IMG/VR virus record: IMGVR_UViG_3300033148_005717
Coordinates: 1 to 45,293 of that record
Source: a virus
Direction: 5' to 3' (one strand)
DNA length: 45,293 nt
Under the pieces are notes generated by a model. It was not told where the DNA came from. It ran no database searches and was given only the letters and a program-made list of their open reading frames with translations. Position numbers and translations under genes: made by a program. Position 1 is the stretch's first letter; each line of letters opens with the position of its first letter. This document shows positions 4,290 to 45,198 of the stretch, in pieces.

Positions 4290-4948
4290 CTTTTTAAACT
4301 CCCTTCCCCGGTTAGGTCTCCGAATCGTTGCGTATAAATTTTAAACCATTTTGGATCTTTCTTAATATATTCCTCGGCCTCGATAAAACGGCCTTCAAGA
4401 ATGTTGCGGGCATACTGATATGCCCATTCAGGATCTCGCTTTATGTATTCCTCCGCTTCAAGGAACCGGCCTTCGAGGATGTCAAGGGCGTATAAAGTTG
4501 CCCATTCAGGATCGGTCTTAATGTATTCCTCTGCCTCGATAAACCGGCCGCCGAGGATGTCGCGGGCATATTTGTAACCCCATTCGGGATTTCTTTTGAT
4601 ATACTGCTCTGCCTCGATAAATCTGCCTTCGAGGACGTTGAGAGCATACCAGCAAGCCCGCCGTGGATTTTTCATGATATATTCCTCGGCTTCGATGAAC
4701 CGGCCATCGAGGATATTATAGGCATACGAAGTCGCCCAGTCGGGATTTTTCTTAATGTATTCTTCTGCTTCGATAAACCGACCTCCGATGACGTCGAACG
4801 CGTACCAATATAGCCACTCTGGAGCGCACCTGTGATTCAGAATTTCTTCGAGCGATAGTTGCCTGACAGCGTCTATTTCCTTTTCACAAATGCCAGCTTT
4901 TTCAGCGGCATCGAGGACCATGTCTATCTGCTTTTTGGTCAACTGCAT
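4286..4948 (-). CDS. Tandem 24-residue repeat protein (GRFIEAEEYI repeats)
   Basis: 220 residues. After a 40-residue helical start there are six near-perfect repeats of about 24 residues, consensus GRFIEAEEYIKKNPEWAYxY then A-x-N-I-L-E. The DNA repeat unit is 72 bp. Repeats of this GR(F/W)xEAE type are known in phage and bacterial proteins of unknown function and are predicted to form an alpha solenoid, suggesting protein binding. Short spacer (20 bp) after the upstream gene, with the GAGGAGTTTGAGAAAATG module at the start. Confidence 0.75.
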   Translation of the reverse strand: MQLTKKQIDMVLDAAEKAGICEKEIDAVRQLSLEEILNHRCAPEWLYWYAFDVIGGRFIEAEEYIKKNPDWATSYAYNILDGRFIEAEEYIMKNPRRACWYALNVLEGRFIEAEQYIKRNPEWGYKYARDILGGRFIEAEEYIKTDPEWATLYALDILEGRFLEAEEYIKRDPEWAYQYARNILEGRFIEAEEYIKKDPKWFKIYTQRFGDLTGEGSLKR

Positions 4949-6565: not shown

Positions 6566-6661
6566 TACATACAACCTCTTTTTGAGGTGGTGGTATATTA
6601 TGGTAGACATATGTACATACAACCTCTTTTTGAGGTGGTGGTATATTATGGTAGACATATG
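6566..6661 (+). repeat. Two tandem 48-bp repeats carrying RBS and start
   Basis: Identical 48-bp copies at 6566-6613 and 6614-6661. Each holds a small hairpin ACCTC-TTTTT-GAGGT, an RBS (GAGGTGG) and an ATG. Forty-eight is a multiple of three, so reading frames continue through both copies. Confidence 0.9.
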
Positions 6662-35946: not shown

Positions 35947-36855
35947 TTAGGTTCCCATAAAAACGGTTTTTGCAAGTTCTTCTTTATACCATTCGGGTAA
36001 ACCCCTCACGACACCCCGCATAATATTATTTTTAAAGTGTCCATATAGTTTACCCATGATAAATTCTTTTTCTTCTTTTTCTATGTCTGCCTGAACTTCC
36101 TTGATGAGACTACCAATATCTCTTGGGCTTTTCTCTAATTTCCCCTCATCTCTCAAGTGAGCGATGGCTTTTTGCCACCGAGCTTCTGTTCGTAATGTTT
36201 CAATAATCATTGTTAGTATTTCGGTTTTATTGCCATCCGATTTCCAATTTTTACTGTGGGACTCTTTGAATCTTTCCGATACAAACTTACCCTTCATATA
36301 CTTTTTGTCCTTCGTAAACCGAGAATAATTCTTTATTACGAATCCTTCAATTTTCTGTCCACCCAATATCGATTCCGTTTCAAGGTAAGACATGAATTGA
36401 TCGAAGTTTTTAACCTTACCCTTAAATATTAGGGGAACACATTCTAAACCTATACGTTCAGCCTCATTACGTTTGGCCTCGCAATCAAGAAATATTTGGT
36501 TTGCATCACTTATGTCAAAGATGATAATGTGTTTTTCGGGAACCCTACTATATGCATAGACATTATGTTTGGGTTTTTGTAAAAACTCTCCGTAATAATA
36601 ATAGTCTGGGTTTAAATCTAAAGCAAGTTCTTTTACGGTTTCCGCAGCCCTATTGAACATCTGCTGAGAACAACCATCTTCAGTAATGAATATTTCTGAT
36701 CCCTTTGAGCGCATAAATATTTCATCTTGCCAACTATGATGGAAAGCAAAAAGTGAACCATCAATTTTTTCTTCGAGAATTACAGGATCGGAAAATATAT
36801 CAGTAATAGCACTATGCCCCATCTGATAAACCGACCCATAACTCGGTATCTTCAT
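35947..36855 (-). CDS. RNA ligase (T4 Rnl2-like)
   Basis: 302 residues. Motif I EEKIDGSL with the adenylated lysine, motif IIIa-like YYYGEFL, HIIIFDI, motif IV KIEGFVIKNY and motif V MKGKFV. Seals RNA breaks with ATP. In phages such ligases repair tRNAs cleaved by host anticodon nucleases, which is a possible role here; no kinase/phosphatase partner of the T4 type is seen. Confidence 0.85.
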   Translation of the reverse strand: MKIPSYGSVYQMGHSAITDIFSDPVILEEKIDGSLFAFHHSWQDEIFMRSKGSEIFITEDGCSQQMFNRAAETVKELALDLNPDYYYYGEFLQKPKHNVYAYSRVPEKHIIIFDISDANQIFLDCEAKRNEAERIGLECVPLIFKGKVKNFDQFMSYLETESILGGQKIEGFVIKNYSRFTKDKKYMKGKFVSERFKESHSKNWKSDGNKTEILTMIIETLRTEARWQKAIAHLRDEGKLEKSPRDIGSLIKEVQADIEKEEKEFIMGKLYGHFKNNIMRGVVRGLPEWYKEELAKTVFMGT

Positions 36856-40856: not shown

Positions 40857-41450
40857 TTATTCTTCCATCCTGAAATTTGGCTCATCCCAAAAGGCAATTA
40901 CAAAACGAGTGTTGCTGTTTTTGATTCGGACAGACAAAAACGGATCGGGTTTTATTGCCCTATAGTCCGAAACCTCAAAGACTAAATCGTCGGGCCGGTC
41001 AAATGTTCGTATAACTGTTTCAGCTTTCTTGAGAGCGTGACCAGGAATGGCATGGTCGTAAACCTTCCAGCGGCCACTCCTGTCTTTTTGGCGTAAGGGT
41101 TTCCAAACGAGTTGTTGTGCGGAATTTGTAAACCTCGATTTTAGATATTTCTCTACGTGTTCGGTATTGTAGACAAATATCTTCTGTTGTTTTAGACACC
41201 GCTTGAGCAGTTCGTCGGCTACAATGGGACTGTCAACGCCGACACTTTCACTTAAAGCCAGATATTCGTCGTCCACTACGACAGATACCTCTTGAGCTTT
41301 GGGTTTATCGACTTTTTCGGGGGGATACCAATTTTCTTGACCGGGTGTAGTATGGTAAAAACCTGCCCGTAACTGTTGTCCTCGCATCATTCTGTATAAC
41401 ATTTCCGGTTCCGTTGCGAAGCTTGGCTTCTTCGCAAACAATGCTGCCAT
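40857..41450 (-). CDS. Hypothetical early protein
   Basis: 197 residues; RBS GAGG. N-terminal MAALFAKKPSFATEPEML, acidic middle (VSVVVDDEYLALSES) and C-terminal beta region. No family recognised; sits between the replication and recombination modules. Confidence 0.5.
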   Translation of the reverse strand: MAALFAKKPSFATEPEMLYRMMRGQQLRAGFYHTTPGQENWYPPEKVDKPKAQEVSVVVDDEYLALSESVGVDSPIVADELLKRCLKQQKIFVYNTEHVEKYLKSRFTNSAQQLVWKPLRQKDRSGRWKVYDHAIPGHALKKAETVIRTFDRPDDLVFEVSDYRAIKPDPFLSVRIKNSNTRFVIAFWDEPNFRMEE

Positions 41451-41469
41451 TTTTACCTCCTCTTTCTTT

Positions 41470-41673
41470 TTACGGTTCAGCCTTGCCGATTGCGTCGGCC
41501 GTTGGCGGTATTATTATTGGCATATTTTCCAACGCTTCCGCAATGCGGGTAAGCTGGTAGGCGATGTCGAGTTTTGCGAATGTCTCCTGAACTGTTCTAT
41601 AGTTTTCTGCATCATTAAGATCGGCATCACTCTCTATTGTTGACATAATTGACTGCATTTCTTCTTTATCCAT
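41470..41673 (-). CDS. Hypothetical acidic protein
   Basis: 67 residues from ATG 41673 (GGAG seven bases before). Helical acidic N-terminus, then TRIAEALENMPIIIPPTADA. The TTG at 41685 overlaps the RBS and is rejected. Confidence 0.5.
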   Translation of the reverse strand: MDKEEMQSIMSTIESDADLNDAENYRTVQETFAKLDIAYQLTRIAEALENMPIIIPPTADAIGKAEP

Positions 41674-41689
41674 CTTGTTCTCCAATCCG

Positions 41690-42000
41690 GCTTGGGGGCG
41701 AGGTGCGCACTCATCATCCCGATTAGGAAATCTACTCGCCCCCGTTGCCGGTTATCCGACGTGGGGATGGGGCACCTTCAATGCGAAGATCAAAGGGTTG
41801 TATCCCCATCCCGTTGCCGGTAGTTTGCGGGTCAAGGCAGAAGCCCCGGACGGTTATTTTTATAACCGGAACGATACCCACGCTTGCTCGGTATAACTAC
41901 CTACCCGGTATCGGAAAACATATCCAATATGTTCTCGGCGAGTATTCTCGGCTTTTACAATCAGCCATATCCGGGCAACTTCTGCTGCGCTCTCGACCCT
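41690..42000 (-). ncRNA. Candidate structured noncoding RNA
   Basis: No usable ORF with a start and RBS on either strand, but many stems: 41694-41702 with 41735-41743 (9 bp), 41764-41772 with 41804-41812 (9 bp), 41851-41857 with 41862-41868 (7 bp, 4-base loop), 41872-41878 with 41907-41913 (7 bp), 41919-41923 with 41927-41931, 41939-41942 with 41947-41950. On the minus strand CCG-GCAA-CGG, a GNRA-capped mini hairpin, precedes each 9-bp stem, 69 bases apart. Strand is inferred from the surrounding operon and the GNRA loops. Pseudogene remnants are an alternative. Confidence 0.5.
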
Positions 42001-42016
42001 ATTCAGTTGTTAAAGA

Positions 42017-42252
42017 TCAATCTTCGCAAAAAACTGCAATTTGCGTTTTTCGAGAATTAAGCTCAACCCCAAGTTCTTGCAATTTTTTAGCATCATTCTC
42101 ATTTAAGTCTCTTAATAACAGTTTGTTGGCGGGGGGCCAAAGAATCCCACGGTAATCTCATTTAAAAGAATATCAACATGCCCCGAATTACTTTTCACGG
42201 AAACCTCAACAACGGGTCCAATTTCCCCTTCTGCTGATTTGAACAAAGCCAT
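42017..42252 (-). CDS. Small early protein interrupted by frameshift at C6 run
   Basis: ATG 42252 with AAAGGAG. Frame 0 reads MALFKSAEGEIGPVVEV to ITVGFFG and stops at 42112. At the C6 run (42131-42136 on the plus strand) the -1 frame continues as PPANKLLLRDLNEND...KKLQELGVELNSR to a TGA at 42017, which reads as the natural end of the same protein. Either a programmed -1 shift on the run, a sequencing indel or a broken gene. About 78 residues if joined. Confidence 0.5.
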
Positions 42253-42269
42253 CACATTCTCCTTTCTTT

Positions 42270-42295
42270 CACTGGCGGCGTAGTCACCGCCAGTG
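42270..42295 (-). promoter_or_regulatory. 9-bp hairpin upstream of RBS
   Basis: CACTGGCGG pairs perfectly with CCGCCAGTG, 8-base loop, ending about 8 bases before AAAGGAG of the next gene. Possible RNase processing or translational control site. Confidence 0.5.
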
Positions 42296-42395
42296 TATTC
42301 GGGGTTAAAGATCAAAAATATTTGCCGCCTCCGCCGCCGTCGCCGCTACCGGAACCGTAGCCCGACTTTCCCGCCGCCCCCTCGGTCGGCAGGGG

Positions 42396-42800
42396 TTAAA
42401 ATGGTAGATCGCTATCCTCTTCTGGGGCTGTGGGTGGGGTAGGATTGTTATTCTCAAGTGGTTTGAATTTTTTAGGGTCGGGATAGTTACTACCTTCATA
42501 TTGACGGTTCTTTACGAATACCCTTAGAAGGGTTCCCTTATATGGTGTGAGATCCCCCTCTTTGTCGGGCATTCCAAGAGCTTCTTTGAATTGTTTTGCC
42601 ATCCAGAGAAAATCTTTGTTGTGTGATAAATTAACCCATGCTGGTCGCTCCGAATCGGCAAAGTTTAATTCGATTTCCGTGTAATCGTTTCCGTTTTTAT
42701 CTTGCTTGGTTTTAAAGTCGATAAAAACCATTTCATACCAATCGGCAATAATGGGAGGAAAATCCCCACTCTTGACGTTACTCGTATCAGGCAGACTCAT
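42396..42800 (-). CDS. SSB-like single-stranded DNA-binding protein (DUF669-like)
   Basis: 134 residues. OB-like beta pattern (YTEIELNFADSERPAWVNL, TPYKGTLLRVFVKNRQY) and an acidic tail ending EEDSDLPF, the SSB C-terminal tip used to bind partners. Next to a Sak4-like gene, as in phage recombination modules. In frame after the TAA, 42312-42395 encodes a Gly-rich stretch. Confidence 0.7.
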   Translation of the reverse strand: MSLPDTSNVKSGDFPPIIADWYEMVFIDFKTKQDKNGNDYTEIELNFADSERPAWVNLSHNKDFLWMAKQFKEALGMPDKEGDLTPYKGTLLRVFVKNRQYEGSNYPDPKKFKPLENNNPTPPTAPEEDSDLPF

Positions 42801-43740
42801 TGTTACCTCCGTTCTTTGCTTTTATTCTTAAATGTTGCAAATATGCTTCAAGGTTAATGATAGATGCTTTGTCGATGTCGTGAAAGTTCAAGTGTTTTTT
42901 ACGGCTTGCCAATACACGCTTGTCTTCGTTGAACTTATCAATTTTATTATCCGAAAGATAAGCTTCACCTTTAAGGCAGGCTGTTATAAGGGCATCCTGG
43001 GTTTGTTGTTTGTTGCTGTTACCAGAGTAGAATGCTTTAATGAGGTTTTCGTAGGCTTCTTCGCCGGTTTTCCCCATCGGGATTCTTGATGGTAAGGCTA
43101 TGCGACTACCAGCTTCCAACGTTAAATCGCCCTCAGTGTAAATCCAACGTTGTCTTCCCTCTTTACGAAGCATAAGAATCATATCAACCGCTGAATGGAC
43201 GATGTTTTTGGCACTATCGTTTAACGTGTCCTTCCATGCTGTTTGGGGTTCTGAATTATCTTTGGTGATGGTTGTTTCTTTTAGATGCGATATTAAAATT
43301 AGTCCCATTGGCAACCTTGCCAGTTTAATAAGAACTTCTCTCATGCGACGCTCAAAAAGTTCTTTACCCGTTCCGTAGGCCAGTTTACCCTTATGCAAAG
43401 TAATGCCATCGTTTTCTTGAACGATGCCATCAATAATGATATTCTGAGCATTATCTATGGTGTCTACTACGAGCGTTTGAAAGCCCATAGTATCTTTTGA
43501 TAACTCCTGATAAATCCAGTCGAAATCGGTATGGTATCGCATAACATAGGGGTTATCGTTGGGGTAATTAGGGTGCGTCCAATGGTCGAGCTCTCTCCCC
43601 CCCTGTCCGGGTTCCGTTAAAATAAACAATGGTTTCGGGAACTTTGAAGCCAAGTCGGTTTTTCCAATTTTAGGCGGTCCCGAAAATTCGATTGTTTGTT
43701 CATGTAATTCTTTTTTGGGTTTAGTTTTTGCTATTGGCAT
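42787..43740 (-). CDS. Sak4-like recombinase / AAA_24 ATPase
   Basis: 317 residues. Walker A GPPKIGKTDLA, Walker B TLVVDTID, then LARLPMGLILISHLKE: the RecA-core pattern of Sak4/AAA_24 phage single-strand annealing ATPases. Pairs with the downstream SSB-like protein (14-bp overlap). Likely mediates phage DNA recombination. Confidence 0.8.
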   Translation of the reverse strand: MPIAKTKPKKELHEQTIEFSGPPKIGKTDLASKFPKPLFILTEPGQGGRELDHWTHPNYPNDNPYVMRYHTDFDWIYQELSKDTMGFQTLVVDTIDNAQNIIIDGIVQENDGITLHKGKLAYGTGKELFERRMREVLIKLARLPMGLILISHLKETTITKDNSEPQTAWKDTLNDSAKNIVHSAVDMILMLRKEGRQRWIYTEGDLTLEAGSRIALPSRIPMGKTGEEAYENLIKAFYSGNSNKQQTQDALITACLKGEAYLSDNKIDKFNEDKRVLASRKKHLNFHDIDKASIINLEAYLQHLRIKAKNGGNNESA

Positions 43741-44657: not shown

Positions 44658-45024
44658 CGGGCGCCTCCCCCGCAATACCGACATCAATTAAATCAGACTC
44701 AAATTCCTTACCGCATTCCTTGCAAATCAACGCACCGTTGCGATAGGCCATGATCGAGTGTTCCCTGCCAGTATTCAGGCATTGAAGCCTTATTTCTGGC
44801 TTGCCATCGATTTCAATCCAGATTACGAGGTGGCTTTTCTGGATGAATCCAGTAGCCAGCAACCGCCGATTGCCGCTTTCTTCTGCGGCAAGCGTTTCGG
44901 GCAAAATAGTTCTTGACTTTTCAGGAATAGCTGTCGATATTGGGGTTGAGGCTTTCGCCTCGTTGCTATTGGTGCCGCCTTCAGGTGTCTGGCCGGGGGC
45001 GGCTATTTTTTCATCGGGTTTCAT
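44650..45024 (-). CDS. First gene of right early operon, CxxC protein
   Basis: 124 residues, RBS AAAGGAG. Disordered Pro/Thr/Ser N-terminus, then a beta domain and LICKECGKEF. Lies just after an intrinsic terminator, so its expression may require antitermination. Confidence 0.5.
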   Translation of the reverse strand: MKPDEKIAAPGQTPEGGTNSNEAKASTPISTAIPEKSRTILPETLAAEESGNRRLLATGFIQKSHLVIWIEIDGKPEIRLQCLNTGREHSIMAYRNGALICKECGKEFESDLIDVGIAGEAPDA

Positions 45025-45038
45025 AGTATTCTCCTTTC

Positions 45039-45082
45039 AAAAAAAACGGGGATACCCCCTCCGTTACCGGCGGAGTATCCCC
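45039..45082 (-). terminator. Leader terminator / attenuator of right early operon
   Basis: On the minus strand GGGGATAC pairs with GTATCCCC round an inner CTCCG/CGGAG stem, followed by G and eight T (45046-45039), then immediately by the RBS of the first early gene. Either shields the phage from host transcription or is a regulated attenuator. Confidence 0.7.
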
Positions 45083-45090
45083 TATCGCTC

Positions 45091-45134
45091 GTCAGAGCTG
45101 ACAAAATGTTAGATGTGTTTTGTGATATTATCAC
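45091..45134. promoter_or_regulatory. Right-end operator region
   Basis: GTCAGAGCTGAC (45091-45102) is the inverted counterpart of 601-612; GTGATATTATCAC (45122-45134) is a perfect 13-bp palindrome. An early leftward promoter is expected here; TTGCAC with a weak -10 is the best I see. Confidence 0.4.
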
Positions 45135-45179
45135 CTCCCCTCTCAAAAAGTGTGCAACAGTTAGTTGACAGAACGCTAA

Positions 45180-45198
45180 ATAATATATCTTATAGGAC
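45180..45198. repeat. Right 19-bp direct repeat, putative attR core
   Basis: Exact copy of 96-114. Joining the left flank to the right flank through one copy gives a predicted empty site: ACATAA-TATATC-TTATAGGAC followed by TAAG. Sequence 45199-45293 would be host DNA; no gene is recognisable in those 95 bases. Confidence 0.75.

Follow-up and report, generated by a model that had tools for sequence, protein, structure and literature searches.

A strongly folded, almost certainly non-coding region in a phage early operon: a candidate cis-acting intergenic RNA element

Introduction

The early operons of phages are usually packed with genes. Which function, if any, may be served by a stretch of more than 300 nucleotides within such an operon that appears to carry no gene and folds strongly? 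The question is raised by a single virus record of 45,293 bases, analysed here at its full length and referred to as the window. Its minus strand bears an early operon of small genes, a Sak4-like annealing protein, a single-strand DNA-binding protein (SSB), two small genes, a 197-aa protein and an O-like replication initiator; an RNA ligase and a phosphoesterase are encoded further along.

A preliminary description of the locus had proposed a candidate structured RNA with repeated GNRA-capped units at 41690-42000, without naming a strand. The location stands, with better bounds at 41686-42018 on the minus strand, which is the sense strand of the operon (333 nt, between the small gene that starts at 42252 and the 67-aa gene that starts at 41673; Table 1). 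We give about even odds to the region acting in cis, as an intergenic element of unusual size that would serve processing or stability of the early mRNA. Most likely it is a large version of the hairpins that are placed before several of the phage's genes.

Table 1. Positions of the features discussed in the text, in window coordinates.
Feature	Position	Strand	Basis or remark
Sak4-like ssDNA annealing protein gene	42787..43740	-	PHROG 124, AAA_24
SSB gene	42396..42800	-	PHROG 378
Hairpin with "hairpin then Shine-Dalgarno" layout, before the preceding gene	42270..42295	-	junction folding
Upstream gene	42017..42252	-	frame 0 stop at 42112; coding-like -1 frame on to UGA 42019-42017
5' branched domain, 171 nt	41829..41999	-	z -5.5; fold unchanged 15 to 60 C
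ACCGGCAACGGG copy 1, 5' arm of H2	41810..41821	-	exact repeat, spacing 69
Hairpin H2, 65 nt	41756..41820	-	pairing probability; -29.8 kcal/mol
ACCGGCAACGGG copy 2, 5' arm of H3	41741..41752	-	exact repeat, spacing 69
Hairpin H3, 65 nt	41687..41751	-	pairing probability; -29.5 kcal/mol
Shine-Dalgarno GGAG of the 67-aa gene	41680..41683	-	sequence; accessibility 0.62
Downstream gene, 67 aa, function not assigned	41470..41673	-	47% identity homologue in L002, same place

Coding capacity of the region and its flanks

A model of codon use, trained on 21 genes of this phage, separates real genes (0.27 +/- 0.11 for 49-codon pieces) from the wrong frame (-0.10 +/- 0.11). Within the region, scores range from 0.03 to -0.21 over the six frames, which bears out the earlier statement that it holds no credible ORF. 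The frame that contains both 12-nt repeats, a 49-aa ORF on the minus strand, reaches 0.02 and falls below the 5th percentile of real genes, and no ORF of the region has a family match or a phage relative. A hidden protein, be it this ORF or the 73-aa and 136-aa ORFs of the plus strand, was rejected on its poor codon scores and lack of relatives; the region is almost certainly non-protein-coding.

Two observations concern the genes just upstream. In the gene at 42252, a slippery-like run of six C's (GGC CCC CCG, 42136-42131) is followed by about 38 coding-like codons in the -1 frame (42017-42136), and this tail has a codon score of 0.21; it reflects either programmed frameshifting to -1 or an assembly that is off by one base. 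A Gly-rich, coding-like tail, PLPTEGAAGKSGYGSGSGDGGGGGKYF, continues in frame past the SSB stop codon (42315-42395, minus strand), and the motif TGATCTTTAAC ends both this tail and the -1 frame of the gene at 42252.

Downstream, the 67-aa protein has no family match, and neither it nor the 197-aa protein matches a PADLOC family. The structure of the latter, predicted without relatives, reached a pLDDT of 45 and was not used.

Folding strength against chance

Structure beyond chance is found at every scale that was compared with shuffled sequences. On the minus strand, a 339-nt stretch folds with a z of -4.95 (matched by none of 100 shuffles), while the plus strand of the same stretch is weaker at -3.19. 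The 171-nt 5' domain alone was equalled by none of 200 shuffles (Table 1), and the hairpins H2 and H3 together reach -4.1. When the window was tiled on both strands into non-overlapping 330-nt pieces, this region had both the lowest folding energy and the largest deviation from shuffles, -28 kcal/mol as compared with -17 kcal/mol for the best tile elsewhere. Its GC content is 0.53 against a mean of 0.44. The main helices are predicted with pairing probabilities above 0.9, and they remain in the fold at temperatures from 15 to 60 C. That the best-folding 330 bases of the genome lie here implies selection on the RNA.

DNA folding is significant as well (z -4.3 and -3.6 on the two strands), and the region sits among replication genes (Sak4, SSB, phage O-like initiator), which would suit hairpins that form on single-stranded DNA as a priming or primosome-assembly site. 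We regard such a DNA-level element as very unlikely: as RNA, the sense strand folds clearly better, with 12 G-U pairs, the layout of a hairpin followed by a Shine-Dalgarno sequence recurs at other genes, and neither iterons nor an AT-rich unwinding region were seen in the region.

Architecture of the predicted RNA

The RNA falls into a branched 5' domain and two tandem hairpins. The domain is closed by three helices, GGGUCGAG/CUUGACCC, GCAGAAGU/GCUUCUGC and CCCGGA/UCCGGG, which stack to 22 bp, are bulged only on the 5' side, and have mean pairing probabilities of 0.98-1.00. This closing stack opens to a junction of five hairpins, forming a six-way junction. H2 consists of a 5-bp lower stem (mean pairing probability 0.97), a 3x3 internal loop, the 9-bp stem GGGAUGGGG/CCCCAUCCC (1.00) and then an 8-bp upper stem. 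H3 repeats this plan after an interval of 69 nt, with a 5-bp lower stem (0.97), a 3x2 internal loop, the 9-bp stem GGGGGCGAG/CUCGCCCCC (0.99) and a 32-nt loop; its 3' end lies 3 nt ahead of the Shine-Dalgarno sequence of the 67-aa gene.

Two observations of the preliminary description are recovered here, namely the two perfect 9-bp stems and the recurrence of ACCGGCAACGGG at a 69-base interval. An exact repeat of at least 12 nt arose in 5 of 2000 shuffles, and two perfect 9-bp stems in 15 of 1000. The 69-nt units are identical at 33 of 69 positions, with the 12-nt arm identical and the remainder divergent. In a hand count made in one register, all 14 pairs are kept between H2 and H3: four of the nine upper-stem pairs differ on both sides with pairing retained (A-U/G-C, U-A/G-C, G-C/C-G, G-C/A-U), and one lower-stem pair differs on one side (G-U/G-C). 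If H2 and H3 are duplicates of one another, these differences would be compensatory changes, the only such signal observed and one internal to the RNA. We take this as no more than a hint, since it was their pairing that drew attention to the hairpins.

The proposed GNRA-capped repeated units fared differently. The mini-hairpins CCG-GCAA-CGG have a pairing probability of 0.0, and folds constrained to contain them are 9.3 and 11.5 kcal/mol less favourable. Below each 9-bp stem, their bases instead belong to an AAC internal loop and to the 5-bp lower stem, in which CCGGC pairs with GUCGG or GCCGG. Since the same bases are engaged in these lower stems and internal loops, neither the capped units nor the suggested switch between 9-bp stem and mini-hairpin is favoured, and at a cost of 9-11 kcal/mol there is no indication of an equilibrium switch. 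The mini-hairpins could form briefly while the RNA is being transcribed.

The position of H3, which abuts the Shine-Dalgarno sequence, also invites the idea of a regulatory leader for the 67-aa gene, in which a ligand or a phage protein (e.g. SSB) would bind the branched domain and change access to the ribosome-binding site. The Shine-Dalgarno sequence is, in one context, indeed paired with 11 nt that lie 5' of the domain. With the downstream sequence included, however, it is 0.62 unpaired, which is ordinary for the operon, and a shuffled 5' flank blocks it equally in 27% of cases; the energetic price of the GNRA switch speaks against such control too, and we consider this leader improbable. 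One specific form, a ribosome-binding site sequestered by the helix of UUG-A-UCUUUAA (42020-42010) with the Shine-Dalgarno sequence, in combination with translational coupling, was rejected: the helix looked strong in one context but no longer does so with the downstream sequence, and the same 27% of shuffled flanks do as well.

Searches for relatives

The preliminary description had proposed an Rfam/Infernal search, and this returned no family. With the Rfam 15 covariance models (4227 families, including riboswitches, ribozymes, introns and abiF RNA), the whole window gave no match at the gathering threshold, and at E-values up to 10 no credible family appeared in the region, where five sub-threshold snoRNA-type matches (E at least 3) were the only ones. 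IMG/VR, GenBank phages, plasmids and the fetched loci yielded no homologue of the region, and DNA searches of phages and plasmids gave nothing of weight. Scanning for the pattern of the 5' domain's closing helix gave no matches, and when covariance models built on H3 and on that domain were run on the fetched loci, only the window itself was recovered at a meaningful E-value. A scan of IMG/VR for a doubled CCGGCAACGGG yielded 15 matches, which we read as coding repeats because their spacing is nearly always a multiple of three, several contigs hold extra tandem copies, and there is little likeness to the rest of the RNA.

The neighbourhood itself, sought through the Sak4, SSB, 67-aa and 197-aa proteins and the terminase, is carried by one relative only, the locus L002 (contig L017/L018), and by none of the host genomes. 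Its Sak4 protein is 72% identical, and it has homologues of the SSB and of the 67-aa gene. The gap between these two measures about 190 nt, folds with a z of -2.0 and differs in sequence from that of the window. It contains an 11-bp hairpin and a second, two-part hairpin ahead of the Shine-Dalgarno sequence; the latter resembles H3, with a CGGC/GCCG base, GGGCGUG/CACGCCC above it and GGGGCG-GUAG in common. Similarity to this gap is not significant, whether the whole region (p 0.69) or H3 (p 0.29) is compared, and the covariance model built on H3 misses it; we therefore claim a like arrangement at the same place and not homology.

The arrangement extends to other junctions. The 75 nt before the Shine-Dalgarno sequence fold with a mean z of -2.7 at gapped and -0.7 at tight junctions (Mann-Whitney p 0.001, 13 vs 16 junctions in two phages), in a comparison in which most controls are gene overlaps, where coding constrains the sequence. 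In the window, further gap hairpins precede the genes at 42252, 40734 and 45024, and the region 41686-42018 is the largest gap element of this layout. Strong hairpins directly before ribosome-binding sites at operon gaps present a testable general layout in two distant phages. The hairpin just ahead of the first operon gene, GGGGATACTCC...GGGGGTATCCCC followed by eight T's (45024-45120, minus strand), looks like a terminator or attenuator. On contig L017/L018, the hairpin GCCCCGCCTGATCGCGGGGC occurs twice before ribosome-binding sites, at about 20385 and 24132.

Comparison with known phage RNAs

Large ornate RNAs of the GOLLD and ROOL type share with the region that they are phage-borne, multi-branched and non-coding. 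They often lie near tRNA islands. The window has no tRNA gene, and the non-coding stretch of 333 nt sits inside an operon, has no Rfam match and has no homologue that we found, whereas many GOLLD members exceed 800 nt (PMC12286853). An RNA of this general kind, a structured ncRNA that is cut from the operon transcript, acts in trans by binding a protein or a host RNA and belongs to a phage class smaller than GOLLD and ROOL, would explain the elaborate multi-branch domain with its 22-bp closing helix bulged on one side, the two similar hairpins that follow it and the absence of an Rfam family. We nevertheless consider it unlikely: no promoter or terminator of its own was recognised on the sense strand, no relative turned up in the searched collections, and the RNA is absent from the nearest relative, where a conserved class would usually appear. 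Should the RNA act in trans, the poorly understood structured RNAs of phages would gain a compact new member. Taken more broadly, as a six-way-junction domain with two tandem 65-nt hairpins that might be processed from the operon, act in trans or place replication genes under protein- or ligand-responsive control, a new class seems slightly less doubtful, and one sequence neither makes nor refutes it.

Two structured repeats ahead of a small gene, here 69-nt units that share one identical 12-nt arm and diverge elsewhere, recall abiF RNA and type III antitoxin RNAs (PMC12373285), and this possible likeness, together with the apparent frameshift and stop in the two upstream ORFs, which resemble decay or an assembly error, could point to a remnant, that is, a decayed gene or mobile element (an intron, a guide-RNA locus or a type III toxin-antitoxin RNA) with an incidental or vestigial fold. 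Unlike those systems, the region has no Rfam match, be it to a group I or II intron, to abiF or to another family, and no terminator between RNA and gene, and the genes that follow matched no toxin or defence family; ToxN, CptN, TenpN and AbiF toxin families gave no PADLOC match in the 67-aa and 197-aa downstream proteins. Moreover, no frame has codon scores like those of the phage's genes, and decay would not leave behind the genome's best-folding part. A remnant is the least probable of the readings that we weighed.

A possible role in early mRNA processing

The cis-acting intergenic element, by comparison, would be an untranslated folded spacer in the polycistronic early mRNA, co-transcribed with the Sak4 and SSB genes before it and with the small gene and the replication genes after it. 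Neither an intrinsic terminator nor a sense-strand promoter was recognised in 41400-42400, which is consistent with an operon-internal element. The hairpins may act in cis as double-strand processing sites, as their irregular helices of about 22-24 bp match phage T7 RNase III sites in size. They may also, as end-blocks, shield the mRNA once it is cut, and the two effects together would allow upstream and downstream genes to be expressed at different levels. We can only guess at a further role of the 5' domain, perhaps as a 3' stabiliser or a protein-binding site. Folds and placement are computed; what we infer is that the RNA is cleaved, that its ends are protected and that the 5' domain may have a partner.

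The closest likeness is to the early RNase III sites of T7 of the R1.1 type, which are irregular hairpins too, about 60-65 nt long, interrupted by a small internal loop and placed in early-gene gaps directly before a ribosome-binding site. R1.1 itself is a 60-nt hairpin with an asymmetric 4/5 internal loop between genes 1.0 and 1.1 (PMC6121014), and H2 and H3 are likewise intergenic hairpins of this size with internal loops. Unlike the T7 sites, the region has two tandem copies and the 171-nt branched domain; cleavage here is a prediction, and no sequence relation is claimed. Against the cis-acting element stands that this domain far exceeds the needs of a processing site, and if the region does serve processing or stability, it would be an unusually large element of that kind. 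The roughly even odds given to it are drawn from a single sequence.

Further observations on the window

The RNA ligase of the same operon (PF09414, PHROG 548) is encoded at 35947-36855 on the minus strand. On the plus strand, a radical SAM gene (PF04055, 8176-9105) lies beside glycosyltransferase-looking genes upstream of the terminase. Five 78-nt tandem repeats at 4346-4891 correspond to 26-aa repeats in a minus-strand protein, and an exact 48-nt tandem duplication at 6566-6661 is either recent or an assembly artefact. Finally, TCCTATAAGATATATTAT occurs in the same orientation near both contig ends, at 92-115 and 45170-45197.
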